Source: a bacterium (GTDB taxonomy: Bacteria; Patescibacteriota; Gracilibacteria; UM-FILTER-43-11). From it: a stretch of DNA of 46,711 bases. The notes under the pieces were generated by a model. The model worked only from the letters and a program-made list of their open reading frames with translations. It did no database searches and was not told the origin of the DNA. Shown here in pieces: positions 12,008 through 44,311 of this stretch. The stretch is from contig JAUHWS010000006.1 of NCBI GenBank assembly GCA_030427295.1, forward strand, positions 1 through 46,711, given 5' to 3'. The stretch's first letter is position 1, and every line of letters starts with the position of its first letter. Both the position numbers and the translations under genes were made by a program.

Positions 12008-12251
12008 AAGTATATACTCACCCTCTGCCCAACTATATACTTACCTTCTTCGAAATGCTGGGGTTCATCTCAGTACCTTTTTCAGCAAGCGAGTAGCAAA
12101 TAACGAGTGGCAATTAGCTAAAATAGATCTTAGAACAGAGCTAAACGCTATACACTAAACGCTACACGCTCAAAAAATAGACTCGTAATTAGTAACTTGT
12201 AATTCGTAACTAAGACAAAAGTATATACCCACCTCAACATCAAGTATATAC
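12008..12251 (+). repeat. iteron-flanked intergenic element, copy A
   Basis: AAGTATATAC sites at 12008 and 12031 (left pair) and at 12219 and 12242 (right pair) all point the same way. Each pair is spaced exactly 23 bp start to start. Most sites are followed by a YYACC-like tail. The interior holds ATGCTGGGGTTCATCTCAGT, then TAGCGATTAGCG-like words, AGATCTTAGAACAGAGC, AACGCTACACGCT-like words and TCGTAATTCGTAACT-like words. Upstream modules (ACGTAGTACGCATTA and CGCACCTCGCACTTAGC words) belong to the same block. It lies between the divergent SLH and methyltransferase-like genes. This 870-bp gap contains no ORF I can support. Confidence 0.85.
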
Positions 12252-12277
12252 CTAAGTGTACAGTTTACAGTACAGTT

Positions 12278-12360
12278 GTCATTCCATGGCTTGACCGTGG
12301 AATCGTCTAAATTCAGTCTCTCCAAATACAGACGACTCTTGGATCAAGTCCAAGAGTGAC
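12278..12360 (+). repeat. two-hairpin composite repeat
   Basis: Hairpin one is GTCATTCCATGG/CCGTGGAATC. The linker contains ATTCAGTCTCTCCAAATACA. Hairpin two is GACTCTTGGA/TCCAAGAGTGAC. Compared with the 44.3-kb copy, the stem-one sequence differs on both arms but pairing is kept. It begins 26 bp after the last site of iteron copy A. Confidence 0.75.
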
Positions 12361-12386
12361 AAATGGTTATCATCCAGGACCTCCCC

Positions 12387-12502
12387 CTCTAGTCCACCAA
12401 ACCCATCTTATTGTCCCCCTCCACAGGGAGGGGGAAAGAGATTGATGGATCAATAGTTTTAGGGGGAGGTCCAGATCAAATGAATGGAATGATTCTAGCA
12501 AC
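12387..12502. repeat. GGGGGAGG palindromic element, copy 2
   Basis: A short left arm (GGACCTCCCCCT) is followed by the central CCCCCTCC/GGAGGGGG hairpin and the right arm AGGGGGAGGTCCAGATCAAA, which runs to a GATTCTAGC tail. It closely matches the window-start copy. Its end lies just before the promoter of the next gene. Confidence 0.75.
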
Positions 12503-12508
12503 CAGAAT

Positions 12509-12537
12509 TTGACAAAATTAAATAAAATGTCTAAGAT
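12509..12537 (+). promoter_or_regulatory. promoter of the methyltransferase-like gene
   Basis: A perfect TTGACA and a TAAGAT box are spaced by 17 bp. The start codon is about 26 nt further on. Confidence 0.75.
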
Positions 12538-12563
12538 GGGCCTCCATCATTAATTCAAACCCT

Positions 12564-14099
12564 ATGAGTGTTACAGACAGCTACCCAGAGAGTGAAAAAC
12601 TAAGCATCCGACAAATTCCAGGTTACTCAGATTTAAACAAGGACATTCAAGAAGGGCTACAACGGCTGGAGTTTTTGGAAGGAGATGAAGATTTGGTCAA
12701 AAAACTTTTTGTGGTCGGAAAGTTGACCTCAGAATTTCTCGCCCAAGCTGACGCGGAAAGAAGAATATTGACGAATCAAGAAATGCAAGAAGTTTATGAA
12801 CTTCAGAACATCCTTTTTACCAACGATGACCTCCAACGACTCGCGGTACCCCTTTTTGGGAGCCAACATTTAGACGAGCATGGCAACGTTGATCCCGACA
12901 GTTGGTTTTGGAAATTGGTCAATCCCCTTGGGGGAGTGCCCCACCTTGGTCAGGCCAACGAAATGGCTGGGCAGGCGATTGCTGAACATGTTGAACATCT
13001 CCCAGCAGATAAACACGCAAAAGTACTCGAGGCTGGTATGGGAGGAGGGAAGACCGCCTTGGCCATTACCGACGCCCTAAAAAATAGAAGATTAGCTTCC
13101 TCAGTTTCATACGTTGGCCTAGAAGTAGCTGGTCCACTAGTAGCCCATGTCGAAGGCATGTATCAGGGAAGAAAACCAGGCTATATCCGAAATCATCCTA
13201 ATCCTAACTTAAGAGACGCTTATCATAGGCAAGCTCAAACGCTTAACGAACTAGGCGCCCTCACTGTTCAAAATGATAGTATTTCTGATCATTTACCTAA
13301 AGTAAATGATGAATCCATCGATGCTCTTGTGATCGGTTACATGATCCACCATCTCAAATCAGGTTTTGCGTTCATGCGAGCGGTTCAAAGTGGCCGACTA
13401 CAGATAAATGGAGAAGGTAACTACGTTTACAAAACTTCCAACGGAAGAGAGATTGCATTGAATGCTAACGAGGTAGAAAGGAGCATTCTCAATTTTACTG
13501 ATCAAGATCAAGGAAAGGCAGCAACTATCAAGGCAAAGCTGATCCTATCAAATGCTGGAGTAGAGCTAAGTGCTGAAGACTTGAATGGTCTGATTCAAAA
13601 CAACCAGCTCGAACTCCTCAAAGCCGCCTTTGAGAAAATCAAACCCGGTGGTCTGGTAATCATTGCGGATCCTGAACAAGGGCTCTCCACCTTCAACAAA
13701 ACCGTCATCGTCAAAGATGCCGAAGGGCTAGCCGACTTCACTTCGGTCGCTCAAATGAAGGGCATGCTTGAGGCAGCGGGTTATAAAGAGGTGACACCCT
13801 ACCTTCAATGGAAAGTTAACAGAGAGTATTACGAAGCCAACGCAGCTCAATTCACTGGCTTCAATGTCGTTCCCGAAAGTTACGATGGCGGTCAAAATAT
13901 CAACAGTTACATCGTCGCTCTGCCTCTTGATCGCATGGAGGCGTTCGAAACTCAGCATGGTGACAACATTCTCGACAAATACTTGGGCTACTACATCATG
14001 GCTAAAAAGCCAAATCCTGAATTTGAAGAGGTTCACAATGAGACGCGAAATAAACTTCGCAGGATATTGGGAGGGGGTATAAATATAATTGGTGATTGA
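12564..14099 (+). CDS. SAM-dependent methyltransferase-like protein
   Basis: The 511-residue protein has a helical N-terminal region (1-150), then a class I methyltransferase core. The core shows motif I KVLEAGMGGGKTALAIT (about 153-169), an acidic residue at the end of beta-2 (YVGLEVAG, E187), SIDALVIGYMIHHL near 255 as the motif IV position, and IKPGGLVIIADP as the post-core strand. The GGGK in the glycine loop is unusual and slightly recalls a nucleotide-binding loop. No substrate can be named. A large insertion (about 275-350) separates core strands. It has its own promoter and terminator, so it is monocistronic. Confidence 0.75.
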   Translation: MSVTDSYPESEKLSIRQIPGYSDLNKDIQEGLQRLEFLEGDEDLVKKLFVVGKLTSEFLAQADAERRILTNQEMQEVYELQNILFTNDDLQRLAVPLFGSQHLDEHGNVDPDSWFWKLVNPLGGVPHLGQANEMAGQAIAEHVEHLPADKHAKVLEAGMGGGKTALAITDALKNRRLASSVSYVGLEVAGPLVAHVEGMYQGRKPGYIRNHPNPNLRDAYHRQAQTLNELGALTVQNDSISDHLPKVNDESIDALVIGYMIHHLKSGFAFMRAVQSGRLQINGEGNYVYKTSNGREIALNANEVERSILNFTDQDQGKAATIKAKLILSNAGVELSAEDLNGLIQNNQLELLKAAFEKIKPGGLVIIADPEQGLSTFNKTVIVKDAEGLADFTSVAQMKGMLEAAGYKEVTPYLQWKVNREYYEANAAQFTGFNVVPESYDGGQNINSYIVALPLDRMEAFETQHGDNILDKYLGYYIMAKKPNPEFEEVHNETRNKLRRILGGGINIIGD

Positions 14100-14119
14100 A
14101 GCTAAATCCCTTCACTCTC

Positions 14120-14154
14120 AAAAAAAGCCTCCGCACGTTTGTGGGAGGCTTTTT
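14120..14154. terminator. bidirectional intrinsic terminator
   Basis: AAAAAGCCTCC pairs with GGGAGGCTTTTT. It lies between the convergent methyltransferase-like gene and the small membrane protein, and has T runs on both strands. Confidence 0.85.
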
Positions 14155-14166
14155 AAGATGTCGGTT

Positions 14167-14547
14167 TTAAACAAAGTAACCTTGCCAAACCAAATACACC
14201 CCCACAATCACCATCACAAAACCGGCAGGATTGAAAAGACCAACCGTCAGATCACTCATCATTCGTTTGATATGAGACTTAGACGTCAACAAGGCAAAGG
14301 TTGCTTCAAGAATCATGAGCCAACCCAGCAAGCTAATGATCACCGTGGTCAAATCTTCCCAAATATTGTGCTTGAGCACCAAGGCGATACCAGCGGTGAT
14401 TTCAATCATCCCATAAACAAATAGGGTGCTGGTCGATTTGGACATTTCTTTCATCATCCCCTTCATTTCGTTGTTTCGAAGGAGGAAAGCCAATCCAACC
14501 AAGATCATGACCGGCCCAATGAGTTGAGCTAAAAATAAAGTAGACAT
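14167..14547 (-). CDS. four-helix membrane protein, unknown
   Basis: The 126-residue hydrophobic protein has four membrane segments at about residues 5-23, 42-60, 66-86 and 103-122, with a short basic loop between the first two. The pattern IGPVMILVGLAFLLRN and FNPAGFVMVIVGVYLV resembles small integral membrane proteins of unknown function. It has its own strong promoter and shares the bidirectional terminator. No Shine-Dalgarno sequence is present. Confidence 0.65.
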   Translation of the reverse strand: MSTLFLAQLIGPVMILVGLAFLLRNNEMKGMMKEMSKSTSTLFVYGMIEITAGIALVLKHNIWEDLTTVIISLLGWLMILEATFALLTSKSHIKRMMSDLTVGLFNPAGFVMVIVGVYLVWQGYFV

Positions 14548-14582
14548 GATTTTATTTTTTATTAAATAAATATTATCTGTTA

Positions 14583-14611
14583 ATTATAACAAAAAACGCC
14601 GAAAGTTGCAA
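14583..14611 (-). promoter_or_regulatory. promoter of the four-helix membrane protein
   Basis: On the minus strand TTGCAA and TATAAT are separated by 17 bp. Confidence 0.75.
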
Positions 14612-14682
14612 GTTTTTGTCTTAATTTAAAGACATTTCATCAATTTTTTGGTAAAATACGATCATCTTTTCACCCACCCATC

Positions 14683-15786
14683 ATGAACTCATTACTCAAA
14701 CGATTGAGCCTCTTTATTCTCATGGCCGTTTTTCTAGGAGGAGTTGGGACTGCTCACGCTCAAAGCAACGAGAGTTTTTTTAAAGGCACCATCACCAATG
14801 TGAGTGATGCAGAAAAACAAGAAGGACCCGCTGGGGAGGTGGGGGTACGAACCATTCAGGTGGAAATTGAAAGCGAATCAGGTCAAAACGAAAGTCTCTC
14901 CATTGAACAAAAAATCAATCTCGATAATAGAAGTGACTTCTTGCCCATCAAAGCAGGGGATTCGATCACCATCATGGGCAGCGAAGTGGAAGGTGAAATG
15001 ATCTACAACATCCACGAACCCTACCGCCTCAACGGGATCATTGCCTTTTTTATTGTCTTTATTCTCTTGGTGCTTTACACCACCCGGTTCAAAGGGTTTT
15101 TGTCGCTCCTTGCCCTGGCAGCCACCTTCCTCATCATTGTCAAGTGGCTCATCCCTCAAATCGTCGCTGGCACCAGTCCGATTTTCATTAGTTTTGTGGG
15201 AGCCTTTGCCATTGCCACCGTCACCTTTTTTCTCTCTCACGGATTCAAAAAACGAACCGCACTGGCTTTAATCAGCACACTGGGCACCTTGATCATCGCC
15301 TTCTTACTTTCTCTTTTAGCTGTGGATTGGATGGCCCTGTTTGGAACAGGAACGGAAGATGCCGTCATGCTCACCTTTGGTCAGCTCGAAAACCTCGATT
15401 TGCAAGGCTTGTTCCTGGGCGCCATCGTCATCGGAACCTTGGGGGTACTGGACGATGTCACCGTCACTCAAATAGCCACAGTCAAACAAATTCACGACGC
15501 CGATAAAATGCTCAGCTACAAAGAGCTCTATCGCCGCGGGCTCTCGGTCGGAAAAGACCATATCGCTTCGATCATCAACACCTTGGTGCTGGCCTACGTG
15601 GGAGCCTCCTTTCCCGTTCTCATTTTGCTCGCCACCAGCGAACGCCCACTTTGGGTCAATCTGAACAGCGAATTCATCGCCGAAGAAGTCGCCCGTACCC
15701 TGGTGGGCAGCATGACCCTCATCCTCGCCGTCCCCATCGCCACCATGCTGGGCGCCTACTACTACTCACGCAAACGGCATCATTAA
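14683..15786 (+). CDS. YibE/F family membrane protein
   Basis: The 367-residue protein has a cleavable signal peptide (MNSLLKRLSLFILMAVFLGG to about AHA|QS, residue 27). An extracytoplasmic beta-rich domain (about 28-115) follows, then about seven membrane segments. YIIHEPYRLNG-like text before the first helix, LGVLDDVTVTQ near 250 and the charged SVGKDHIASIINTLVLAYVG motif near 290 identify the YibE/F family. Transport is a common suggestion, but the substrate is unknown. It is convergent with the DUF4012 gene and appears monocistronic. Confidence 0.88.
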   Translation: MNSLLKRLSLFILMAVFLGGVGTAHAQSNESFFKGTITNVSDAEKQEGPAGEVGVRTIQVEIESESGQNESLSIEQKINLDNRSDFLPIKAGDSITIMGSEVEGEMIYNIHEPYRLNGIIAFFIVFILLVLYTTRFKGFLSLLALAATFLIIVKWLIPQIVAGTSPIFISFVGAFAIATVTFFLSHGFKKRTALALISTLGTLIIAFLLSLLAVDWMALFGTGTEDAVMLTFGQLENLDLQGLFLGAIVIGTLGVLDDVTVTQIATVKQIHDADKMLSYKELYRRGLSVGKDHIASIINTLVLAYVGASFPVLILLATSERPLWVNLNSEFIAEEVARTLVGSMTLILAVPIATMLGAYYYSRKRHH

Positions 15787-15941
15787 ATTCATTCCAATAC
15801 GTTTCCAATTTACCTCAATACTTTCCAAATAAAGTCTAATTTTGAAATGTCTAATTTGGGAATGATTCTTTAAACATTAAAATCAGCATTTCAAATTTCA
15901 TTTGGAATGAATTAAAAAGTATTGATGAGTGTTGGAATGAA
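15787..15941. repeat. TTCATTCCAA/TTGGAATGAA inverted module
   Basis: ATTCATTCCAATACGTTTCC at the left end is complementary in part to AAAGTATTGATGAGTGTTGGAATGAATT-like text at the right end. AATGTCTAATTTGG words lie between. The same module replaces the interior of the iteron element at 17.9-18.2 kb. No gene fits here. As RNA it would separate the convergent YibE/F and DUF4012 genes. Confidence 0.6.
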
Positions 15942-17615: not shown

Positions 17616-17656
17616 GTTTCGAAGGATTCAATCGCTACCGTTCTCTGATCAGATTA

Positions 17657-17697
17657 ATTTTAGTCGAAAACACCTCAAAAACCAAGTGAGAGAGGTG
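17657..17697 (-). promoter_or_regulatory. promoter of the DUF4012 gene with an overlapping inverted repeat
   Basis: On the minus strand TTGGTT and TAAAAT are spaced by 17 bp. A CACCTC/GAGGTG inverted repeat at 17671-17697 overlaps the -35, a plausible operator position. Confidence 0.6.
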
Positions 17698-17742
17698 ATT
17701 TTTTGTGGTTTAATCGCCAAGTCCAAATTCTCTCCAATCCCC

Positions 17743-17770
17743 GAAGGCGAGGAAACGTTTCCTCGCCTTC
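17743..17770. repeat. 28-bp perfect palindrome
   Basis: GAAGGCGAGGAAAC is followed immediately by GTTTCCTCGCCTTC. It is G/C-rich against its surroundings and lies upstream of the DUF4012 promoter, next to the palindromic element. Confidence 0.8.
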
Positions 17771-17794
17771 ATTGTGGAATAAGAAAATATGAGT

Positions 17795-17895
17795 GCCAGA
17801 ATCACTCCACTCGTTTGATTTGGACCTCCCCCTTATTCAATCAAACCCATCATATTGTCCCCCTCCTCATATGAGGAGGGGGAAGGATTTGAAGG
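17795..17895. repeat. GGGGGAGG palindromic element, copy 3 (left arm present)
   Basis: GCCAGAATCACTCCACTCGT and TTTGATTTGGACCTCCCCCT form the left arm, followed by AAACCCATCATATTGTCCCC and a CCCCTCCTCATATGAGGAGGGG hairpin. Together with copies 1 and 2 it defines a unit with long terminal inverted repeats. Confidence 0.75.
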
Positions 17896-17936
17896 TGAGT
17901 TGATGGCAAGGGGGTGGTTCTGTAATGGAGGGGTGA

Positions 17937-18203
17937 GTATATACTTTTGGTGAGGGTGGGTATATACTTTCGTCTCAATTACGAATTACAAGTTACTAAT
18001 TACGAATTAAATCGCAATGCCTAAGATCTCAATTCTTAAATTTTATTCAGCCTATAAATAGCTTAAATAAAGTAAATTCTAAATCATTTAGACATTAGAA
18101 ATTCAAGCTTAGGATTTGTTTGGAAACGATTGGTGAGTACTGGAATGAATTGGAATGAATTAAGACATGAGTATATAGTTGGGCAGAGGGTGAGTATATA
18201 CTT
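17937..18203 (-). repeat. iteron-flanked intergenic element, copy E (inverted, different interior)
   Basis: On the minus strand the left pair lies at 18203 and 18180 and the right pair at 17969 and 17946, each pair offset by exactly 23 bp. The interior differs from the other copies. Most of it is replaced by a TTAATTCATTCCAATTCATT module related to 15.8-15.9 kb, while the GAGATCTTAGGC and TCGTAATTAGTAACTTGTAA parts remain. Upstream ACGTAGTACGCATTAC and CGCACCTCGCACTTAGCACT modules match copy A closely. No gene lies in the surrounding gap. Confidence 0.85.
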
Positions 18204-18296
18204 CATGTCAGGTGCGGAGTGCTAAGTGCGAGGTGCGACGTAAAATGGAGATCCAACTGAAACGTAATGCGTACTACGTAATCCGTAATGCGTAAT

Positions 18297-18340: not shown

Positions 18341-18373
18341 CAAAAACTAAAACTATCCGCAACCCATCCGCAA

Positions 18374-19461: not shown

Positions 19462-19463
19462 TT

Positions 19464-20604: not shown

Positions 20605-23400
20605 ATGTTCCAAAAACCCTTCGTCGTTCTCGACCTCGAAACCAGCGGTATCGATCCCAAGCGAGACGACATCATCGAAGTCGCCATGATCCGCTACGAA
20701 AACGGCAAAGAAGTCGGGCGCTACGAAGACCTCATCAAAGTCGACTACAAACTCCCCGACATCATCACCATGATCACGGGGATCACCGATCAAGATTTAG
20801 AAGCAAAAGGGAAGGAAAAGGGCCCTGTTTATTATGAAATCAAACACCTGCTCAAAGGTGCCTACCTGGTGGCCCACAACACCCGCTTCGATGTCGGATT
20901 TTTACGTGAAAAAGACATCGAACTCGATATTTTGGGAGAAATCGACACCATCCCCCTCGCCCAAATCCTCATGCCCGAGGTCGCCAGTTACAGCCTCGAA
21001 TCCCTCGCCGACGATCTAAACATCAATCACGAAAACAGTCACCGAGCCATGGCCGATGTCGAGGCCACCCTTGACCTACTTAAACACCTCTGGAAATTAG
21101 GATGTCAGCTCCCCAAAGCCACTCTCACGGAAATCCGAGAACACCTCCCCAAGGCCACCTGGGATGCCGGCGTGTTCTTTGAAGCCCTCAAATCCACCTC
21201 CACTCAACTCAAAACTGATGTTCAAGCCGGCTCTTTCGATGCCGGCCCCATTGGGCTCGGCGTCAAAAAACCCCTCGAGCTCAATCACGTTTTCGGTCCC
21301 GAGGGTGGTCTCGCCAAAGTCATGGACCACTACGAATCCCGCCCTCAACAAGTTGAGATGTCCGACAACATCCTCCGGGCTTTTCAAGAAGGCTTTCATC
21401 TGGTCTGCGAAGCCCCCACGGGGGTCGGAAAATCCCTCGCCTACCTCGCCGCCGCCGCTCATCACGCCATCAGCAACAAGAGTAAGATCGTCCTCTCCAC
21501 CAACACCATCAACCTGCAAGAACAGCTCTACGAAAAAGATGTCCCTCTCCTGCAAAAAATCTACGCCGAGATGACCAACAACAAAGGGGTCAACGTGGCC
21601 TTACTCAAAGGCCGTTCTCACTACCTCTGTCTCCGGCGCCTGGCCGAATTCAAACGTCGCCCACGGCTCACCCCCGAAGAGCTCATCCTGCTCATCAAAA
21701 TTTTGGTCTGGCAAAACACCACTCAAACGGGAGATTCCTCAGACATTCATCTCAACCGCTCCGAAATTCTCATCTGGAATTTTGAACTCAGTGCGGATCA
21801 AAAATTCTGCACGCCACAAAAATGCAAAGCCTTCGGCAATTGTTACCTGCACGAAGCCCGTAAAAAAGCAGAAGACGCCGACCTGATCATCGTCAACCAC
21901 GCCCTCCTCTGTTCCGATTTGGCTCGAGAAGGGGGCTTACTTCCCGAATTTAATTATTTGGTCGTTGACGAAGCCCATCATTTTGAAACCGTGGCCACTC
22001 AATCGTTTGGGGTACAAATCAAACAAGAATCCATTGCCGTTCCGCTCAAAACCATCCAACACCACCTCGGCGATCTGCAACGCCGTTTTTCTGGCACCTT
22101 GTTCACGGCCAGCAGCAGTTTTGAAGCCATCGATCCGCTCCTCGAGCAAATTCCCGACCTCCAACAAGAGATTGAAAATTTCTTCAGCGTGGTTTCCATT
22201 TTTGTCGGACGTAATGTTCCCGAATCCGCCTTCACCGAAAATCTACTCATCGATCAACTCCTAGGCGCGAGTGAACAATGGATGAATCTGGGGGATTCCT
22301 TCAGCTCCCTTCACCAAAAGCTAAGCCACTGGCTTCGCCAACTCCGCCAGCTCGCTGACAGTCTCGAGCTCAATGAAGGAGATGATTTCCCTGACGAAGC
22401 TGATTTTACCGATGAGCTCTTTCAAGAAATCAGTATTTTGTCCGAACAACTCACCCACGCGAGCCAGTTTTTCGACAACGAAGGAGATGCCAAAAAGCTC
22501 ATTCGCTACATCGTCTCGGACATGCAAGGGGTCATCACCCTCAACATCGCCCCTCTCATTTTAGGAGAAGAGCTCAGCGAAAAACTTTATACCAAAAAGC
22601 GGTCCGTCATCTACACCTCTGCCACGCTTGGCGTTGACCTAAAATCCGAAGAACATCCTGATGCCCCCCACCCCTTCACCTACGTTCGGCGCATGCTGGG
22701 GCTCAACGATCAGTTTGAAGAGTTGATTTTAGAATCCCCCTTCGATTACGAATCTCAAACCTATGTCTTGACCCCGAACGACCTATTTCCGGTGCAATCT
22801 CGGAACTCCATCGACCAGATCAGCGAGTTCATGAAAGGTCTAGTTCAAGCAGTTGGAGGAGGAATGCTCGCCCTCTTCACCTCCCATGGGGCGCTGCAAA
22901 AAGTGTTCATGAATCTCAAAAAAGAATTGGTTAACAATGCACCCAAACTTCTAGCCCAGCGCATCAGTGGCGGGCGGGGAAAGATCATGAAGGCCTATAA
23001 AAACGATCCCACCCACTCCGTGCTCTTCGGCACCAATAGTTTTTGGGAAGGGGTCGACCTGCAAGGCGAAGCCCTTACTACTCTCGTCATCCATAAGCTC
23101 CCCTTCGACGTGCCCAGCGACCCGATTTTCAAAGCCCGCTGTGAACTGTTCCAAAACTCTTTCATGGAATATTCCGTTCCTCGAGCCATTCTCCGCTTTC
23201 GACAAGGCTTTGGTCGGCTGATTCGCTCCACAAAAGATTACGGCGCCCTAATCATTCTTGACAACCGCGTCCTGACTAAACAATATGGCCAAATGTTCCT
23301 CCAAGCCCTACCTGCCAACGTGACCATTGAAAAAACAGAGCTCTCCACCGTCCCCGACAAGGTGAGTGAGTGGCTTCAAAATTGGAAAGAAAATAATTAA
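20605..23400 (+). CDS. dinG: DinG-family helicase with N-terminal DEDD exonuclease domain
   Basis: The 931-residue protein fuses a DnaQ-like 3'-5' exonuclease (about 1-165: VVLDLETSG, AHNTRFDVGFL, SHRAMADVEATL, with DEDD residues) to an XPD/DinG superfamily 2 helicase. Walker A is APTGVGKS near residue 270 and the DEAH box is VVDEAHHF near 453. Four cysteines between them (HYLC near 341, then CTPQKC and GNC at about 402-413) fit a [4Fe-4S] site. Motifs V/VI are FWEGVDLQGE and RFRQGFGRLIR. It probably unwinds and trims DNA structures during repair. The exonuclease-fused form is known from Gram-positives. Confidence 0.92.
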   Translation: MFQKPFVVLDLETSGIDPKRDDIIEVAMIRYENGKEVGRYEDLIKVDYKLPDIITMITGITDQDLEAKGKEKGPVYYEIKHLLKGAYLVAHNTRFDVGFLREKDIELDILGEIDTIPLAQILMPEVASYSLESLADDLNINHENSHRAMADVEATLDLLKHLWKLGCQLPKATLTEIREHLPKATWDAGVFFEALKSTSTQLKTDVQAGSFDAGPIGLGVKKPLELNHVFGPEGGLAKVMDHYESRPQQVEMSDNILRAFQEGFHLVCEAPTGVGKSLAYLAAAAHHAISNKSKIVLSTNTINLQEQLYEKDVPLLQKIYAEMTNNKGVNVALLKGRSHYLCLRRLAEFKRRPRLTPEELILLIKILVWQNTTQTGDSSDIHLNRSEILIWNFELSADQKFCTPQKCKAFGNCYLHEARKKAEDADLIIVNHALLCSDLAREGGLLPEFNYLVVDEAHHFETVATQSFGVQIKQESIAVPLKTIQHHLGDLQRRFSGTLFTASSSFEAIDPLLEQIPDLQQEIENFFSVVSIFVGRNVPESAFTENLLIDQLLGASEQWMNLGDSFSSLHQKLSHWLRQLRQLADSLELNEGDDFPDEADFTDELFQEISILSEQLTHASQFFDNEGDAKKLIRYIVSDMQGVITLNIAPLILGEELSEKLYTKKRSVIYTSATLGVDLKSEEHPDAPHPFTYVRRMLGLNDQFEELILESPFDYESQTYVLTPNDLFPVQSRNSIDQISEFMKGLVQAVGGGMLALFTSHGALQKVFMNLKKELVNNAPKLLAQRISGGRGKIMKAYKNDPTHSVLFGTNSFWEGVDLQGEALTTLVIHKLPFDVPSDPIFKARCELFQNSFMEYSVPRAILRFRQGFGRLIRSTKDYGALIILDNRVLTKQYGQMFLQALPANVTIEKTELSTVPDKVSEWLQNWKENN

Positions 23401-23571
23401 ACTGGGAGCTTGGAGATGGTAGCTGATAGTGAAATTCGGTTAAGATAATTCTCTATTCATCTTAAATAAGAGATAATTTAATTTATTCCAAAATACCCAC
23501 TAGTCTAACAGCTAACAGCTCATAAAAACTCCTTAACAAACCAATCATATTTTGTTAATTTAAGAACGAAT

Positions 23572-29043: not shown

Positions 29044-29289
29044 AAGTATATACTCACCCTCTCCCCCAACTATATACCTATCCTCTGCAGAATGCTGGGG
29101 GTCATCTCAGTACCTTTTTTCTGCAAGCGACTAGCGAATAGCGAGTAGCGATTAGCTAAAATAGATCTTAGAACAGAGCTAAACGCTATACGCTAATCGC
29201 TACACACTCAAAAAATAAACTCGTAACTCGTAATTAGTCATTCGTAACTGAGACAAAAGTATATACTCACCTCAATCAAAAGTATATAC
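29044..29289 (+). repeat. iteron-flanked intergenic element, copy B
   Basis: Sites at 29044 and 29068 (24 bp apart, the only deviation) and at 29257 and 29280 (23 bp apart) bracket the standard interior (AATGCTGGGGGTCATCTCAG, TAGCGATTAGCT, AGATCTTAGAACAGAGC, ACGCTAATCGCTACAC and CTCGTAATTAGTC words). Upstream are ACGTAGTACGCATTACGCAT and CGCACCTTGCACTTCG modules. The last site ends 18 bp from the transketolase stop codon. The rest of the 420-bp gap holds no gene. Confidence 0.85.
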
Positions 29290-29307
29290 CCGTCCTACCA
29301 GAGGAGA

Positions 29308-31215
29308 CTAAATATTCCGACACGCAGCCTCTAAGTCGCTCGGTCCAATCCCGGCCTCATCATATAATTGATCGGCCGTGCCCGAGAGTTGATATTCCCG
29401 CACGCCCATATTGTTGATGACCACCGACAACCCCTCTTGCGCAATCACTGCATTCACTTGAGAAGCCAGCCCATTGTAGGGGTTATGATCTTCAATCGTG
29501 ATCAGCTTACCGGTTTTTTCCAGGGAGGGAAGGAGAACATCCAAATCAATCGACTTGAGCGAGCTGATGGCAATCACCTCTACCGATACTTCTCCCTTCA
29601 ATTGATCCGCTACGTGAACCGCCTGGCTCACCATGCTTCCGCCAGCCACCACGGTCACGGCTTCGCCAGTTCGAAGCAGATCTGCTTTACTATACTCAAA
29701 CTGGTAGTGTTCATCGTAAAAGGGCGTTCCATCCTCTTTTAAAATCACTTCAAATTTGTGACGCCCCATCCGTACATAAAAATTTCCATAATGCGAGGCG
29801 ATATAGCGAATAATATGATCCGTCTGATTGGCATCTGCCGGCTCGATCACATGCGTGTTAAAGAAGCCAACAAAAGACCCCATGTCATCAATCGCCTGAT
29901 GCGTCGGCCCATCCTCACCCACGGACAAGCCGCAGTGCGTGGCGACCATCTTCACATTGGTCTGATTGATGTCATTGACCCGAGCTTGGTCTTTCGCTCG
30001 ACTGCTCATGAAGGCGCCAAACGTCGACGTAAAAGGGATGTAACCGTGCAAGCTCATTCCCCCTGCCAGACTTACCATGTGTTGCTCGGCAATGCCCACC
30101 TCCAAATGTCGCTCAGGGAAGGCTTTGCCCATGACGGCCGTTTTCACGGAGCCTCCCAAATCTGCCGTGCTGGCCAAGATATTGTCATTCAGTTCTGCCA
30201 AATTGAGCAGGGCTTTACCATACGCCGAACGGCAATCCGACTTGGTGCCCGCTTCCAAAATCATCGGTTTCCCGGTTTTTACTTCTGGCATTTCACTCAA
30301 GCTCTCCACATGAGCCGGTTCAGGCGGTTGCCATTGGATACGGGCTCTAAAATCATTAATCCGCTGTCTCTCTTCATCCAATAATGCGAGCGGCCCGGAC
30401 AATTCCTTCTCAGTATTCTCCTTGCTCGGAGCAATTCCATGCCAGGTCGCTTTGTCCGCCACGCCTTCGGCTTCCATAAAACTCACCCCTTTCCCCATCA
30501 CGGTTTCTCCAATCAAAATCACAGGCTTATCGGACGCATAAGCCTCTCCCAAAGCCTTCCACATGGCCCCAAAATCATGGCCGTCCACTTCAATGGCCTT
30601 CCACCCTGCCGATTCCCAAGTCGCTTTCGGATTGATCGGCATGATAGATTTTGTACTATCAGTCAACTGCACCCGATTGTGATCCATGAACAAGATGTAG
30701 TTGTTCAATTTGTATTTATTGGCAAAATGCATCATTTCGTACACTTGCCCCTCATCTGACTCCCCATCACCCACCAAACCAAAGACTTTTCGATCTGTTT
30801 GCTTCATTTTTTCCGCCATGGCAAACCCACTCGCCACGGATACTCCAATTCCCAATGGCCCCGTGCCATAAGTCACCCCACGAACATGCCGGGTGATGTG
30901 TCCTTCATAAATTTCTCCTACTTTACGAAACCCTTTCACCGCTTCCTCCAGAGGGATGTAGCCCATGTGGCCTAAAATGGAATACACCGCCGGGGAGACA
31001 TGTCCATTGGACACCACCACATCCTCGCCAGTTTGGCTAACAATAAACCCATAAATCAAAGCCAAATAATCGATCACACTACAGGACCCTCCCGGATGCC
31101 CTGATTGAGCATTGGTCGTCATTTCAACAATCGAACGGCGACAACTTTTGCTGAGGGCATTTAAAAAATCAAGATGGTCTTGAGTGAGCGGCTCTCCAAT
31201 TTTAGGTAAATTCAT
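29308..31215 (-). CDS. tkt: transketolase
   Basis: This thiamine-diphosphate enzyme moves two-carbon units between sugar phosphates in the non-oxidative pentose phosphate pathway. The 635-residue single chain contains all three parts. The N-terminal ThDP domain has SGHPGGSCS (about 38-46), GTGPLG near 117 and the GDGESDEGQ...N cofactor motif at 149-157. The pyrimidine-binding domain has EVGIAEQHMVSLAGGM with the catalytic Glu, followed by GPTHQAIDD. The C-terminal domain starts near 500. In some reduced genomes the enzyme is split in two; here it is intact. It has its own promoter. Confidence 0.94.
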   Translation of the reverse strand: MNLPKIGEPLTQDHLDFLNALSKSCRRSIVEMTTNAQSGHPGGSCSVIDYLALIYGFIVSQTGEDVVVSNGHVSPAVYSILGHMGYIPLEEAVKGFRKVGEIYEGHITRHVRGVTYGTGPLGIGVSVASGFAMAEKMKQTDRKVFGLVGDGESDEGQVYEMMHFANKYKLNNYILFMDHNRVQLTDSTKSIMPINPKATWESAGWKAIEVDGHDFGAMWKALGEAYASDKPVILIGETVMGKGVSFMEAEGVADKATWHGIAPSKENTEKELSGPLALLDEERQRINDFRARIQWQPPEPAHVESLSEMPEVKTGKPMILEAGTKSDCRSAYGKALLNLAELNDNILASTADLGGSVKTAVMGKAFPERHLEVGIAEQHMVSLAGGMSLHGYIPFTSTFGAFMSSRAKDQARVNDINQTNVKMVATHCGLSVGEDGPTHQAIDDMGSFVGFFNTHVIEPADANQTDHIIRYIASHYGNFYVRMGRHKFEVILKEDGTPFYDEHYQFEYSKADLLRTGEAVTVVAGGSMVSQAVHVADQLKGEVSVEVIAISSLKSIDLDVLLPSLEKTGKLITIEDHNPYNGLASQVNAVIAQEGLSVVINNMGVREYQLSGTADQLYDEAGIGPSDLEAACRNI

Positions 31216-34255: not shown

Positions 34256-34499
34256 AAGTATATACTCACCCTCTCTCCATCTATATACTCATCCTCTTCA
34301 AAATGCTGAGGTTCATCTCAGTACCTTTTTCAACAAGCGATTAGCGAATAGCGACTAGCGATTAGCTGAAATAGATCTTAGAATAGAGCTAAACGCTATA
34401 TACTGACCGCTACACGCTCAAAAAATCAACTCGTAATTAGTCACTCGTAATTCGTAATTAAAACGAAAGTATATACCTACCTCAACCCAAAGTATATAC
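34256..34499 (+). repeat. iteron-flanked intergenic element, copy C
   Basis: Sites at 34256 and 34279 and at 34467 and 34490 are each 23 bp apart, with the standard interior (AAATGCTGAGGTTCATCTCA, AGCGATTAGCT, AGATCTTAGAATAGAGC, GCTACACGCTC, TCGTAATTAGTCACTCG). It lacks the ACGTAGTAC and CGCACCT modules seen upstream of A, B, D and E, which sets the core boundary at the outer sites. It lies between divergent PKD and PHP genes. Confidence 0.88.
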
Positions 34500-34582
34500 C
34501 TAAGTATACATTAAAGGCTAGTCGCTGACCACTACCCGCTAATCGCTATAAAATGCTATACTCAACTTATAAAAAACATAAA

Positions 34583-38144: not shown

Positions 38145-38208
38145 ATTTTTTTAGCTAGTCACTCCTGGAGACCCAACTCGTAATTTGTAATTCGTAATTA
38201 ATAATTAA

Positions 38209-41200
38209 CTATTGGACATTAATGATGACTTCTTCTTTGATATCGCCATAAAAGGTGTCTGTGGCTGTGATGCGAATGCGATTGGCTCCTGGATCGATGG
38301 CTGTGAAAACGGTCTGAGCTTTCGAATCGATCGCATCAATCGGAGTGGGACTAAAACTTCCGGTCCCTTCCAAAAGCTCAAAGAAGACTGAACCGGTATA
38401 AGTCGAATTGTCCGCGTTTAAAATTTGAGCGGTGATATCCGCCGTTCCACCCGGACGAAGTTGAATCGGCGAAACAGAAACATTCAGCAAAGTGATTGGC
38501 TGATTGGGCGCTCGCAGTGCAATCGTTCGAGCGGTGTTTCGCTCTCGATCGGCAGAACTCAAATTCAAGTCAATGTCACGAACAGCGACACCTTCATTTC
38601 CCAAACTGTCTTTCGTGGTCAATTTAGCTCGGTACAGCTTTGTTTCAGGGTAAGTGAAGGAAGGATTGATTTCCGTCGATTCCACATCATCATCCGTGGT
38701 CCCATTCCCGTCGGCATCTTCTTGGACATCAAAATCCCATTCATAACGGAGGGTTTTATCTTCTAGATCTCCATCCACCGCCGAATTACTTGCGTCAAAG
38801 TCAACGGTATTCCCTTCAATCGAATAAATATAACTGGCTTGAGGATAGGCGTTGGTCGATTCCACAAAAACCGTTTCAGTCACCGATGAGGAAAGACCTC
38901 GGTGGGTCACTCTCAGGCGAACCTCATACTCTCCCGGCGTATTGAACTGTCGGCTTACCTGCGGTCCGCTGCTGGTGTCATCAAAGGCGCCGTCTCCATC
39001 AAAATCCCACTGAAAGGCCGAATTGGGAAGTTCATCCCCCTGAGGATCATACGAATCAGACACAAAGGTGATGGAATCTCCCACAGAAATCGTGGTTTTA
39101 TCCGCTGTGAACGCCGCGACAGGCGATAGGTTCGGTCCATTGGTAGCCTCCACATAACTCACCTCACCAAATCGCTCAGTAGTGTTAAACGTACCATTGT
39201 CATTATCGATGACTTCGGCCACAAAGAAGAAACGATTCTCAAGTCCCGTCTCACCTTGAGCAGTCACCACCATATCGGTTTCCGGTTCTGACGTTGAATG
39301 GAGTCCTAAACGTTCATTTGAGGCCCCTTCCGGATAGTACCACCAACGGTATTTTTTTACTTGCCCGTCGGGATCCATGGCTCCCACAATCTTCAAATTC
39401 ACTTTGGTTGGGGTCACCAACCCTCGATCGCCCTCATCTTGAATCACGAAATCCGTGATAGTGGGGGATTGATTGATGACTTTAAAGTAGAGCACATCCT
39501 CATTACTGATCTTTCCACTGACATCGTCTCGAACGGTCAAGGTGACGGTTTCACATTGGTTTTCGGGGGTAAGCTCATTAAAACGCTTGGTGAACTGTTT
39601 AGTGGTATTGTTGGTGCCATCCGAAAATTCCCAATTGTAGCTCAATAGTCGACTAGACCCATCCCGATTCACCGAGTTTTCTGCTGTCAGCACCACATTT
39701 TCTGCCCGGCTGACAAAATAGCCACTCTTCCCCTCTCCACACAAATCTTCAGTCAATTCCGGACTACGGCCTCCCACCGTGGCTTCCGCCAAGGCAATGG
39801 GATTGTCTCCCTCGGCTACCAAAACAAAAGCACTCACCTGGTTGCTGTTGTCATCTCGGTCAAAAAAGTTGAGGGTCACTTCATATTTTCCTTCTTCTTG
39901 ATAGGTGTGAGTCACACTACTTTCCTCCGTGCTTGCTGTTTCTCCATCTCCAAATTCCCACAGATAAGCCACGGCATTCGAATTCGCGGCTGAGAAGGTC
40001 ACGGGTTGACCCAATTGAACCGCTTTTTTATCGATTTCAATTTCACTTGCCAACACCGACTCTACCTCCACATTCTTTTTGATTTGATGGGTTTTTCCAA
40101 AGGCATCTGTCACTTGCAAGGTGGCTTCAAAAATACCGGTTCGTCGGTAGGTGTGAGGGGCCAACAAATCCGAGCTATTGGTCACTTCAAATTGTCCATC
40201 GCCATCAAAATCCCACGAGTAAGTGATTTCATCGCCTTGATCCGGATCGTAACTATTCGACGCATCAAACTCAATCAAATTCGGCTGGTTTGGACTTGGC
40301 GCCTCGTAGGTAAAATTCGCCACCGGTTCGCGGGATTCCACCGTCAATTCTTCAGTGGTTTTATCTTGAGCCCCCAAGGTATCGGTAATGGTCAATTCCA
40401 CATCATAAGTCCCAGGACTCTCAAATTGATGCGTGAAATTCTCATTCGTGCTGGTAGCTACCACTTGATTGTCAGCATCTAAAATTTGCCAACTGTAGGC
40501 AGTGATAATCCCATCGTCACTGCGGCTTTCGATGCCGCTAAATTTATATTCCGTGTTCACATCCCCCCCCGTTTCTGGATCGACCTCAATTTGAGCCGCC
40601 AGAGGTTTGACGACAATTTTCACCACCCGCCGATCAATCACATCTTGATCGTCAGTGACCCGCAAGGTCACAAAGTATTCCCCTTGTTCTGCATAGCTGT
40701 GGGTCACCGGTACGTCTGAACTGCGTGTGTCACTAAAGCCATCGCCATAAAACCATTCATATTGTTTGATATTTCTACCTTGAGCAGGCACGGTAATTGA
40801 GGGGTCAAAAGTGATCCCTGTATTGGCTTCTTCCAAAGTCACATTGAAGAAATCCGTCGTTTCGGATCCATTCACTCTAAAAGCAATGCGAGTTGCCGGA
40901 GGATTGGCTCGAATCAAGACCGTTGACACCCCATCCATGGCCATTTTGTAGCCTGCATCATCTTTATTGCTCGTGCTCACTTGCAATTTAACAGTATAGG
41001 TATTGGGCTCTGTAAACTCATAGGTCGCAAATGGCTCATTGCTAAAATTATCCGATTGACCATTCGGCTGAAGAATGGACCACGTGTAATCCGCAATGGT
41101 TCCTCCCGTGGGATCACTGGATGACAGTCCATCAAAGGTCACGGTAAACGGCACATTGCCCTCGCCTGGAACCGCTGTGATTTGAGAACGAACGACGGGG

Positions 41201-42483
41201 AAAGTTAAAATCAAATCCCGAAGTTCACTGTAAGCATCTTCAAATTGGAGCAAGAATACCCCGCTGGTCGGATCGGTTTCTAAATCACTTAAGGCGCTCT
41301 CAGTGTCATTCCAGGCCTCAAGGGTTCGATCAGCTTCAGGCATGACCGTTTTGAGCTCATCTAAATCCTCAAAAACGAGGGATAGATTTTCAAGGGCTGA
41401 GATGGCTCGATTTAAAATCACGACGGCATTGTTCGACAGTGGCGCAAAGTCACCAGGGTTATCGATCAAATCTTCCAAGCCACTGATCTTCGCGGTCACA
41501 TCCCCCGAGGTCAAAATCGTTTCAATTTCAGTTTGAAGGTCATCATCCAAGGTCTGAATGTCGCTACCCAAATCCGACAAGGCTTCAATCAATTGATCCA
41601 AAGTCAGATCGAGTTTATTTAAGGTGTCAATACTCAAGCCCTGATTCTCTCCTCCTGTAATTCCACCCTGGCCTCCAGCTCCTTGAATTTCACATTCATT
41701 TTGATCCAAGTTACAGACATAACCCGTGGCACAATCGGTGTTGTCTGAACACTGGGCGCCTGAGGCTCCATTTTGGTTATGACAGAAGCCAAACCCATCA
41801 CATTGTTCCGGCGCATCACAATCTGAATTCACTTCACAGGTTTCACTGCCTCCATCTTTACAGGTGGCATCGTCACTACAATATTGACCGGGACTACAGT
41901 CCACACTGGTCAAACAGGCAAAACCTTGAGGGAGTGCACACACATTGTTTTGACACACAAAACCTTGAGCACAATCAGCATCCACATCACAAACATTTCC
42001 GCCTTCGGGCTGAGCCTCACAGAAATTGTCTTCGCCACATACAAAGCCAGCGCCACAATCTGCATCAATCGTACAAGTTTCTCCTCCTCCTGCACTGCTG
42101 GTGATGAATCGAACAATCGAAAGGGATAAAATCACGACCAAAAGTCCAATTGAGGCATACATTATGATTTTTTTAGCCTTGGTGATCTGCTCATCATTCC
42201 CACTGGACACCACCCAAAGTACGCCAGCGTAGATAAGCATGATGACGGCTAAGAATCCCAAAAAGCCAATAAAATAATTCACAATCGAAAGCACCACAGC
42301 TCCCAGAGGCCGCTTGTCAATGTCCGAACTGATACTCACTTCGTCTGTTCCTGCCACTGTAAGACCACTTCCTCCCTCCTCAAGGCCCTGGGCCAAAAGG
42401 TCTGGGGCCAGCTGAACCGTCACGATCAAAATGAGGGTGATGACGGCGACTTGCGCGGTAAATTTTAGAATTTTTTTGAACAT
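38209..42483 (-). CDS. giant surface protein: pilin-like module fused to Cys-rich and PKD repeats
   Basis: The 1424-residue protein has a signal peptide (about 1-31) and two membrane segments (62-92 and 104-129) around a GNDEQITKAKK loop, the layout of conjugation-pilin-like (VirB2/TrbC-type) proteins of CPR bacteria. The neighbouring gene encodes the same module alone. Next come about five Cys-rich units (CxxDxDC..GxxC...C, about 136-275), a helical stretch (285-430), about nine PKD-like modules (for example WFYGDGF, WDFDGDGQFE, WEFGDGE, WDFDGDGAFD) and a C-terminal Ig-like domain. It is probably a large adhesin or stalk rooted by the pilin module (inference). It starts 30 nt after the pilin gene. 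Confidence 0.88.
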   Translation of the reverse strand: MFKKILKFTAQVAVITLILIVTVQLAPDLLAQGLEEGGSGLTVAGTDEVSISSDIDKRPLGAVVLSIVNYFIGFLGFLAVIMLIYAGVLWVVSSGNDEQITKAKKIIMYASIGLLVVILSLSIVRFITSSAGGGETCTIDADCGAGFVCGEDNFCEAQPEGGNVCDVDADCAQGFVCQNNVCALPQGFACLTSVDCSPGQYCSDDATCKDGGSETCEVNSDCDAPEQCDGFGFCHNQNGASGAQCSDNTDCATGYVCNLDQNECEIQGAGGQGGITGGENQGLSIDTLNKLDLTLDQLIEALSDLGSDIQTLDDDLQTEIETILTSGDVTAKISGLEDLIDNPGDFAPLSNNAVVILNRAISALENLSLVFEDLDELKTVMPEADRTLEAWNDTESALSDLETDPTSGVFLLQFEDAYSELRDLILTFPVVRSQITAVPGEGNVPFTVTFDGLSSSDPTGGTIADYTWSILQPNGQSDNFSNEPFATYEFTEPNTYTVKLQVSTSNKDDAGYKMAMDGVSTVLIRANPPATRIAFRVNGSETTDFFNVTLEEANTGITFDPSITVPAQGRNIKQYEWFYGDGFSDTRSSDVPVTHSYAEQGEYFVTLRVTDDQDVIDRRVVKIVVKPLAAQIEVDPETGGDVNTEYKFSGIESRSDDGIITAYSWQILDADNQVVATSTNENFTHQFESPGTYDVELTITDTLGAQDKTTEELTVESREPVANFTYEAPSPNQPNLIEFDASNSYDPDQGDEITYSWDFDGDGQFEVTNSSDLLAPHTYRRTGIFEATLQVTDAFGKTHQIKKNVEVESVLASEIEIDKKAVQLGQPVTFSAANSNAVAYLWEFGDGETASTEESSVTHTYQEEGKYEVTLNFFDRDDNSNQVSAFVLVAEGDNPIALAEATVGGRSPELTEDLCGEGKSGYFVSRAENVVLTAENSVNRDGSSRLLSYNWEFSDGTNNTTKQFTKRFNELTPENQCETVTLTVRDDVSGKISNEDVLYFKVINQSPTITDFVIQDEGDRGLVTPTKVNLKIVGAMDPDGQVKKYRWWYYPEGASNERLGLHSTSEPETDMVVTAQGETGLENRFFFVAEVIDNDNGTFNTTERFGEVSYVEATNGPNLSPVAAFTADKTTISVGDSITFVSDSYDPQGDELPNSAFQWDFDGDGAFDDTSSGPQVSRQFNTPGEYEVRLRVTHRGLSSSVTETVFVESTNAYPQASYIYSIEGNTVDFDASNSAVDGDLEDKTLRYEWDFDVQEDADGNGTTDDDVESTEINPSFTYPETKLYRAKLTTKDSLGNEGVAVRDIDLNLSSADRERNTARTIALRAPNQPITLLNVSVSPIQLRPGGTADITAQILNADNSTYTGSVFFELLEGTGSFSPTPIDAIDSKAQTVFTAIDPGANRIRITATDTFYGDIKEEVIINVQ

Positions 42484-42513
42484 ATTTGTTTTTTGTCTTG
42501 GTTGGGTGGAGGA

Positions 42514-43068
42514 TTATTGATCTGGATTCAAGCCTTCCACAAGGTCTTGGGTGAATAGGCGAGTGATCGAGAAGGAAAGGATAACGAGTACCAATCCAAT
42601 CGTCGACCAGAGTAAGATTTTTTTCGCTTTCCCCACTTGCTCATCATTTCCTGCCGCCGTGATGTACATCACGCCAGCGACGACGTAGCCTAGAAAGGCG
42701 GCTAGGGTCAAATAAGGCAAGGCAAAGTTCACGAGTTTTTTGATGAAGTCTCCAAAGTCACTCGTACCCGTCAAGCCAGTCGTCTCCAACGTGTCCCCTG
42801 CAAAACTGGTGCCGGCGGCTGCTTCAGAGGTACATAAAATTGTCTCATCTTCATTTTGAGGATCGCTACAATCCACATTTTTACACAGTTCGTAGTTCTC
42901 ATCGCCTTCTTGGATGTCCCCCAAACAGGCGCCATATTCCACCTCAAAACCTCCAAAAATCTGAGCGTTCGCATTCAGCGCGAAGCCCATACTGCTGACT
43001 ATCAAGGCAAGGCCAATGGCCAGTCCTTGGCTCAGTTTCCGAAGATGAAAGCGGAATAAAAAGTCCAT
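42514..43068 (-). CDS. conjugation-pilin-like (VirB2/TrbC-type) membrane protein
   Basis: The 184-residue protein has a signal peptide ending near ANAQ (36). A Cys-containing, acidic outer loop follows (cysteines at 48, 62, 67 and 79), then two membrane helices at about 113-138 and 150-171 joined by GNDEQVGKAKK. This hairpin with an NDEQ turn is characteristic of pilin-like conjugal-transfer proteins annotated in many CPR genomes. No VirB4, VirB6 or other secretion gene is present here. It is first in a three-gene operon with the two PKD proteins and has a strong promoter. Confidence 0.82.
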   Translation of the reverse strand: MDFLFRFHLRKLSQGLAIGLALIVSSMGFALNANAQIFGGFEVEYGACLGDIQEGDENYELCKNVDCSDPQNEDETILCTSEAAAGTSFAGDTLETTGLTGTSDFGDFIKKLVNFALPYLTLAAFLGYVVAGVMYITAAGNDEQVGKAKKILLWSTIGLVLVILSFSITRLFTQDLVEGLNPDQ

Positions 43069-43090
43069 GTTTAGCTAAATTAATCCCTTT

Positions 43091-43119
43091 ATTATATCAA
43101 ATTTCATAACAAAAATCAA
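43091..43119 (-). promoter_or_regulatory. promoter of the pilin-PKD operon
   Basis: On the minus strand TTGATT and TATAAT are separated by 17 bp, about 23 nt before the pilin ATG. Its -35 lies about 9 bp from the divergent TTGACA. Confidence 0.75.
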
Positions 43120-43127
43120 TTTTAACG

Positions 43128-43155
43128 TTGACAATTTTGGCAAACTTGCTAACCT
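43128..43155 (+). promoter_or_regulatory. divergent promoter of the small RNA
   Basis: A perfect TTGACA is followed after 16 bp by TAACCT, a weak -10. It lies back to back with the pilin-operon promoter, so one regulator could control both. Confidence 0.5.
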
Positions 43156-43162
43156 ACACTCA

Positions 43163-43310
43163 GTTTTGAGCAAAAAACATGCCAAAAAACCTTCAACAAA
43201 ACATTATTCTTAGCATTATTATTTCGCCACACCGTGGTGCATAGTTTTGTGTAGAATAATCGTTTTGTTCCAAACTATCCGCCACAAAGAGGCGGGTTTT
43301 TTATTTTTTA
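43163..43310 (+). ncRNA. small structured RNA or attenuator leader
   Basis: AACAAAACATTATTCT (43195) pairs with AGAATAAT-C-GTTTTGTT (43253), a 16-bp helix with one bulged C that encloses a CACACCGTGGTG hairpin. A terminator then follows. The next start codon comes only about 13-20 nt after the terminator T-run. It is therefore either an independent small RNA or the leader of the next gene with conditional termination. I do not recognise a ligand-binding family. Confidence 0.6.
43279..43303 (+). terminator. intrinsic terminator directly before the next start codon
   Basis: CCGCC and GGCGG pair around ACAAAGA, followed by a run of T. The downstream ATG is 20 nt away. Confidence 0.8.
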
Positions 43311-43322
43311 AAGAAATTTAAA

Positions 43323-43877
43323 ATGGGATTATCTACAGCATTAAATTTAGATGAAAGAAATTCTATAGCTTCGCCGGATCCCCTGGATGCAATAGGGATC
43401 GAAGCAGATTTGGTTAGTTGTGATCCAGAAGACATGACAGAGGTTATTCCTGCGAGTGCACCGCAGCTGACAACTGATTTAAGTGGCTATGAAAGCGTAT
43501 TAAGTGGGTCACGAGGGGCATTGGAAGGTCTTACGTGTGCAGTGAAATCTAGAGTTTGTGGGCTAACGGGAGATAAAATCCAAGAAGATGCGCCGCAGGA
43601 TAATAAACGTAAGATTTCAAGGGTTAATAATCCATTTGGAGGATCTGATTTTCCTCCAGAAGTTGAAAGACTTTTGGTTGAAGGTGCTGAAACATCACGA
43701 AGATGGCTTCATAGAGTTGTTACTCTATTAGAAAAATCAAATCGTTCAGGAGATTATTTTAGTGCTGGAGCTTTGCTGTTGGCATTAAAAAAGGCAGGCA
43801 GAGGAAGGTTGACTCGGAGGAGAAAAAAAATCATAGAAACCATCGCCAAAGATTACGAATTGCCCGAGCATTTTTAG
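43323..43877 (+). CDS. unknown soluble protein downstream of a terminator
   Basis: The 184-residue protein has no membrane segment. The N-terminal half is acidic and Ser-rich. The C-terminal half is basic (KAGRGRLTRRRKKIIETIAK) with a helical VERLLVEGAETSRRWLHRVV segment. I do not recognise the family. It has lower GC and more A/T-ending codons than its neighbours, a mild sign of foreign origin. No promoter is evident between the terminator and the ATG, so expression may depend on read-through. Confidence 0.6.
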   Translation: MGLSTALNLDERNSIASPDPLDAIGIEADLVSCDPEDMTEVIPASAPQLTTDLSGYESVLSGSRGALEGLTCAVKSRVCGLTGDKIQEDAPQDNKRKISRVNNPFGGSDFPPEVERLLVEGAETSRRWLHRVVTLLEKSNRSGDYFSAGALLLALKKAGRGRLTRRRKKIIETIAKDYELPEHF

Positions 43878-43917
43878 TATCCAAGGTAAGTAAAGTGACT
43901 CACAATCTTGCCCCCTA

Positions 43918-43965
43918 AAAAGGGGAATGGTCATCGTTCACAATCCCCGTGACCATTCTCCTTTT
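43918..43965 (+). terminator. long hairpin after the unknown gene
   Basis: AAAAGGGGAATGGTCA pairs with TGACCATTCTCCTTTT with one mismatch around a 16-nt loop, about 40 nt after the stop codon. The T run is inside the stem base rather than after it, so it is a terminator or RNA-end hairpin. Confidence 0.6.
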
Positions 43966-44069
43966 GAGGACTTAATTTAATGAAAAATGACTACGTAGTA
44001 CGTATTACGCGTATGCCATCTTTCCTTTTTTACTGCGCACTTCACACTTAGAACTTTACACTTGAGATG

Positions 44070-44311
44070 AAGTATATACTCACCCCATCCCCAACTATAT
44101 ACCTAACCTCTGCAAAATGCTGGGGTTTATCTCAGTGTCTTTTTCGACAAGCGATTAGCGAGTAGCGAATAGCGATTAGCTAAATACAGCTTTAAGAAGC
44201 CCCCTCTGGCTCCCCCGAAGGGGGAGGAAATATTGAGATAACTTGTAATTCATCACTCGTAATTCGTAACTAAGAATAAAGTATATACCCACCTCAACCC
44301 AAAGTATATAC
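44070..44311 (+). repeat. iteron-flanked intergenic element, copy D (REP replaces part of the interior)
   Basis: Sites at 44070 and 44093 and at 44279 and 44302 are each 23 bp apart. The left interior is standard (AAATGCTGGGGTTTATCTCA, AGCGATTAGCT). The AACGCTATACGCTAA part is replaced by a GAAGCCCCCTC...GAAGGGGGAGG REP palindrome. ACGTAGTACGTATTACGCG and CACTTCACACTTAGAACT modules lie upstream, and a two-hairpin composite starts 18 bp downstream. No gene lies in this 700-bp gap. Confidence 0.85.

Follow-up and report, generated by a model that had tools for sequence, protein, structure and literature searches.

Intergenic DNA of this small genome, from an uncultured bacterium, carries a family of mosaic repeats, about 105 in number, each built on four copies of a directional 13-bp site that are arranged as two pairs with a pitch of 23 bp. 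We give a probability of about one half to the reading that these elements are a lineage-specific intergenic repeat of the BOX or BIME kind, which once dispersed through the genome and whose four sites are now preserved as a putative protein-binding platform.

The genome is a 1.48-Mb draft in 98 contigs, estimated to be 92% complete. Its small size and its genes for a T4SS-pilin-type protein, a DUF4012 protein and Cys-rich paralogues hint at a Patescibacteria-like lineage. Using the directional pair pattern AASTATATACNNA-N10-AASTATATACNNA with up to one mismatch, we collected 114+97 = 211 pairs, equivalent to about 105 elements with a unit of about 250 bp, one per 14 kb on average and about 2% of the genome; the reversed control pattern gave no match in the genome. 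The copies first noticed on a single contig are therefore present well beyond it, and a chance origin was rejected as both this control and shuffled sequences gave approximately zero matches. The two-site scan that the preliminary description had proposed for relatives gave no match in any of the 352 further genomes searched in the class, the congener among them, and the element is missing from the congener at three loci whose neighbours are syntenic on both sides. At one of these, the gene now terminates on the first bases of the element itself (VFQ-TAG against VFQD-TGA, the codons CAG-TAG replacing CAA-GAC-TGA of the congener). In named public genomes, the only left-pair match (L021, Flavobacteriales TMED113) was taken as chance, because it lies in an open coding frame and has an unrelated spacer. 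Viral contigs contained five pattern matches, one isolated pair in each, and phages and plasmids contained none. The same architecture with another motif was not seen in samples of four relatives (G016, G012, G014 and G032).

In the window, that is the whole 46.7-kb stretch of DNA that was analysed, GTATATAC has 15 matches where 0.09 are expected and where 100 shuffles gave at most 1, so that the finding survived the shuffle check, and all 15 fall in five elements (Table 1). These have four direct sites each, 20 in total, and the remaining five sites, all at the second position in the left pair (L2), read CTATATAC. The left pair is AAGTATATAC-N13-AACTATATAC, whereas the right pair is AAGTATATAC-N13-AAGTATATAC, both with a start-to-start distance of 23 bp. 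The five elements of four same-direction sites given in the preliminary description agree with ours at all 20 core starts, and its distances were exactly reproduced, with nine of the ten pairs at 23 bp and one at 24 bp (29046-29070). For the analysis of anatomy and placement, we fetched stretches totalling 423 kb, or about 29% of the genome, picked by site matches and with genes called simply as longest ORFs; in these, 194 pairs have the 23-bp pitch, one has 22 bp and one 24 bp. They contain 111 elements with at least one exact pair, including 82 with all four sites. According to the information content of these 82, all four sites correspond to the 13-bp AA(G/C)TATATACNNA, and the A at +3 after the core (NNA) is near-invariant at each of them, which makes the site directional. 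Only this A is constant in what had been described as a YYACC tail, and the core, described as palindromic, is consistently non-palindromic at L2. As each site keeps its own direction and its flanking A's, and L2 is always CTATATAC, the thing conserved is not a palindrome or a hairpin.

Table 1. Elements and related forms in the window (positions in the window; cores given as ranges or, for elements 4 and 5, as starts)
Feature	Positions	Strand	Passenger	Cores	Surroundings and other parts
Element 1	12008..12264	+	family 0, spacing class 188	L1 12010-12017, L2 12033-12040, R1 12221-12228, R2 12244-12251	divergent gap; upstream heptad flank; downstream GTCATTCC/GACGACTCT module
Element 2	17924..18203	- (inverted)	family 1, class 211	L1 18194-18201, L2 18171-18178, R1 17960-17967, R2 17937-17944	
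Element 3	29044..29302	+	family 0	L1 29046-29053, L2 29070-29077 (sole 24-bp pair), R1 29259-29266, R2 29282-29289	transketolase gene 29308-31215 (-), 3' end 5 bp from right end of element
Element 4	34256..34512	+	family 0, class 188	L1 34258, L2 34281, R1 34469, R2 34492	divergent gap
Element 5	44070..44324	+	family 0, spacing 186	L1 44072, L2 44095, R1 44281, R2 44304	convergent gap
Collapsed form	6641..6730	-	none	no pair; one degenerate site AAGCATATACCTA (~6686-6699)	U1, degenerate site, then D1
Site-less passenger	23399..23524	+	family 3		directly 3' of stop codon of helicase/exonuclease gene 20605-23400

In each element a passenger module, of one of four interchangeable kinds, lies between the left and the right pair, and optional modules lie outside them; the preliminary description contained neither the four different interiors nor the outer modules. 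The passengers of the 82 four-site elements fall into four mutually unrelated families, with one odd copy standing apart; the families have 35, 24, 11 and 11 members, and their most frequent L2-R1 distances are 188, 210, 211 and 165 bp (classes of 165-211 bp). The passenger of family 0 is mostly made of heptad arrays (TAGCGAN and its complement) able to fold back, and the other families are hairpin-prone too. Heptad pieces without sites are also present in further species of both the family and the class, and three site-less passengers, all adjoining gene ends, were found in this genome. The outer modules are U1-U3 upstream and D1-D5 downstream, D1 being hairpin-like and followed by a T run. 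U1 accompanies an element in 11 of its 12 occurrences and D1 in 22 of 23, the exception being the collapsed form at 6641-6730 of the window, where one degenerate site is all that stands between U1 and D1. Some elements are composites with three pairs and some have mixed outer modules, which indicates that the modules recombine. Sites almost never stand alone: 448 occurrences have a nearby partner, and only two intergenic sites are unpartnered, one of these being a pair with a degenerate second half. The four modal passenger spacings (165, 188, 210 and 211) all equal 23n+4 within 1, but strict phasing over the whole element is violated by copies at 167, 178, 216 and 230, some of which result from gain or loss of heptads, and a 23-bp phase across the entire element is suggestive at most.

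Whichever way they point, the elements prefer positions immediately after stop codons. Among gene ends facing an element, 56 of 120 3' ends lie within 15 bp of it, against only 3 of 81 5' ends. Convergent gaps contain an element in 27 of 52 cases and divergent gaps in 9 of 46 (Fisher p = 0.0015), with tandem gaps at 51 of 168; as this sample of gaps is biased to the neighbourhood of elements, only the contrast between convergent and divergent gaps is informative. The copies do occupy all types of gap, as had been described, but unevenly, and we agree with the earlier view that a simple promoter role is unlikely. In tandem gaps the orientation is unbiased (23 same, 29 opposite). Replacement of the C-terminus by insertion was rejected as a rule, since genes that abut an element do not have significantly longer tails than controls (p = 0.14, 11 against 33 genes).

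Comparison of nearest copies of the same family gives what we regard as the strongest evidence on the meaning of the element. Between such copies, the passengers differ by a median of 10-14% and the spacers between paired sites by 25-31%, whereas the site cores differ at 31 of 2592 bases (about 1%); the length of the spacer is constant although its bases are not. The cores were first detected at no more than one mismatch each, in stretches themselves chosen by their sites, so this conservation is somewhat overestimated. Among copies found via passenger homology alone, 85-89 of 99 assessable copies are perfect at each of the four core positions. In the 80 copies whose left pair is perfect, the right cores mismatch at 41 of 1280 bases, and almost all of these mismatches come from six copies that lack a whole site or have it shifted; this check reduces the detection bias and does not remove it. 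Taken together, the core divergence relative to that of passengers and spacers, the constant pitch and the bias check indicate that the sites and their pitch are kept and the passengers are not. The heptad parts of the passengers may mutate unusually fast and exaggerate the contrast, but the heptad-poor family 2 has the same one. The comparison of sequences thus favours sustained use over the decay of dead insertions. If copying continues and needs intact sites, turnover alone could preserve the sites without benefit to the host; the 10-14% divergence typical of nearest copies nevertheless implies that few are recent.

From the copy number, anatomy, position and constraint we infer a history of spread followed by binding. 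A copying or recombination process would have carried both pairs with differing passengers, copies would have survived chiefly where insertion was harmless, behind genes, and the site arrays, judging from their constraint, would still be in use. A sequence-specific DNA-binding protein would bind in tandem at each pair, and the two pairs of an element may be drawn together over the passenger. The genome would then have some 105 binding platforms with a mean spacing of about 14 kb, comparable to BIMEs in their role as protein-binding platforms. The preliminary description had suggested, from the core, the tail and the fixed phasing of the sites, that the paired motif is bound by a protein, and this appears to be its likeliest meaning. 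Its proposal that the protein sits on a single helix face is not supported: 23 bp correspond to about 2.19 turns at 10.5 bp per turn, an offset of about 70 degrees, so that paired partners do not lie on the same helix face.

A stronger form of this interpretation, which we hold only tentatively, is a species-specific chromosome-binding system, absent from the congener, in which all of the approximately 105 four-site platforms would be maintained by selection and a tandem-pair protein would bridge ends within or between elements, organising the chromosome or insulating gene ends.

Rather unlikely, in our opinion, is a non-autonomous mobile element (MITE- or PATE-like) that is active or was so until recently, and whose paired sites would be the recombinase-binding ends for an enzyme encoded elsewhere, with no function for the host. 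Dispersal of this kind, already raised in the preliminary description, is plausible given the restriction to one lineage, the high copy number in both orientations, the different passengers between identical ends, the composites sharing a pair and the insertion that hit the final codon of one gene; enrichment in convergent gaps has also been taken as a mark of mobile repeats (PMC3049150). The ends, however, lack the usual marks: they are direct, without a long inverted repeat, and the 82 copies have no excess of flank matches of at least 3 bp at any fixed offset (a 2-bp TA duplication would be below that limit). No transposase-like gene family recurs in the fetched stretches, and a partial transposase survey found no autonomous partner in this 29% or so of the genome, two enzyme families having been scanned genome-wide. 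RAYT and IS200 enzymes were rejected as mobilisers as their ends do not match the element: different hairpins bound the IS200-like transposase, and the flanks of the four RAYT-like genes hold GAAGGCGAGG and ATTACGT-type repeats and not the paired site. The divergence of nearest copies also speaks against recent activity.

The position at stop codons (56/120 against 3/81) also agrees with a gene-end element acting as RNA, in termination or in protection of mRNA 3' ends as discussed for REPs, and the passengers do fold better than shuffles (mean z of -1.2 to -3.5 by family), with a terminator-like hairpin in 15 of 35 family-0 copies and a D1 module that resembles a hairpin with its T run. We nevertheless judge this improbable: the four family alignments contain at most one or two compensatory pairs each, tandem gaps lack an orientation bias, and the conserved part is the four sites and not the part that folds. 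Terminator-like hairpins are missing from the sense strand of the three other families, and a general terminator was rejected because only one passenger family has them. In the stretches tested, no element matched Rfam at the gathering score, which only a tRNA reaches in the window; sub-threshold matches occur and were not counted as support. Recombination or attachment sites, at which att-like pairs would exchange non-coding modules in the manner of an integron, or of an attP that has arm-type sites, are very improbable, for although pairs stand at module junctions, modules are mixed, solo sites and solo pairs exist and paired arm-like sites flank a core region of about 250 bp, integrase-family genes are found in 18 of 18 genomes of the family (five here and five in the congener) and the element only in this one, and the passengers have no genes and showed no common crossover core.

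Among known systems, the BOX elements of streptococci (boxA-boxB-boxC) are modular intergenic repeats of 67-637 bp, over-represented between convergent genes (PMC3049150). In architecture, the level at which the two were compared, our element has similarly constant end modules around exchangeable middle modules and the same intergenic dispersal, but what is constant in it is a directional 13-bp site, present as two pairs with a fixed 23-bp pitch, and its passengers are four unrelated sequences. REP and BIME repeats, associated with RAYT transposases, are likewise present in more than 100 copies, extragenic, mosaic and close to stop codons (PMC2817692). They differ in having a GTAG-headed GC-rich palindrome where the sites here are AT-rich with directional flanks, in alternating orientation where the repeats here are direct, and in that the four RAYT-like genes examined here are not flanked by the element. 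MITEs and the IS200/IS605-derived PATEs are also short, non-coding, dispersed and lineage-specific; apart from the palindromic core, the termini of our element form no inverted repeat, it has no target duplication of 3 bp or more, no parent was found in the stretches and enzyme families surveyed, and the IS200-type element of the genome has different ends from it. Iterons and TnsB-type sites are directional and tandemly repeated at a pitch of about 22-23 bp, but here there are two sites per end, dispersed over the genome, with no replication origin or transposon genes attached. TAACTGA heptamer repeats form more than 100 intergenic direct-repeat sets just upstream of start codons in an uncultured bacterium (PMC4679880); heptamer arrays are also parts of the passengers here, whereas the spaced 13-bp sites lie behind stop codons. 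By architecture, the element belongs with the modular intergenic repeats (BOX, BIME), but it lacks the palindrome and RAYT flanks of REP/BIME and the target duplication of classical MITEs.

Small streamlined genomes are thought to be poor in repetitive non-coding DNA. Here about 2% of such a genome is a repeat family absent from the relatives surveyed, with a putative protein-site array that has outlasted the surrounding DNA. This makes it an unusually clear test case for whether scattered repeats in bacteria are remnants or binding sites that the cell maintains, and the paired site offers a ready bait to find the binding protein. Several contigs start or finish inside an element, as is normal for repeats.

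Over all families of the element, the modal passenger spacings (165, 188, 210 and 211) conform to 23n+4 with a deviation of at most one base. This fit is common to the four passengers, despite their unrelated sequences.

Repeats, either GAAGGCGAGG-type or other, lie close to four genes for RAYT-like Y1 transposases; a stop interrupts one of the genes and a contig end truncates another. As CCTCGCCTTCA occurs 43 times in the 423 kb of fetched stretches, it may be the REP family of these genes.

Genes considered in the element-bearing genome (L, fetched DNA stretch; C, contig)
Gene	Location	Strand	Remark
IS200/IS605-type transposase	L162 442-915		CCCCG/CGGGG hairpin ends flank both sides
RAYT-like Y1 transposase	L158 (C45:9000)		
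RAYT-like Y1 transposase	L159 (C4:4736)		
RAYT-like Y1 transposase	L160 (C73:49821)		
RAYT-like Y1 transposase	L161 (C41:3193)		
SLH-domain protein	window 9927-11693	(-)	

Within an outer module adjoining an element, positions 1399-1492 of L042 matched the Rfam whalefall-1 RNA on both strands at 29.1 bits, below the Rfam cut-off of 37 bits; the match probably reflects no more than a palindrome. L052 and L057, the starts of contigs C35 and C41, carry near-identical elements and the adjoining gene pieces are near-identical too, a likeness that would reflect a segment duplication or an assembly overlap. At least seven Cys-rich paralogues of about 550 aa each (MKTCxxCQSSFEV...) are clustered in L086 and L087 (C73). 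In the window, the SLH-domain protein gene contains a perfect TCATCC hexamer array of 11.8 copies (10933-11003), the length of which could possibly vary in frame.

Regarding the relatives, a palindrome around GGAGTCCGGACT is common in the G012 genome (stretches L225-L230), where one 10-mer occurs 17 times per 100 kb, and the G014 genome (L231-L237) has a CTTCCAGATATGTG repeat with a spacing of 35 bp.
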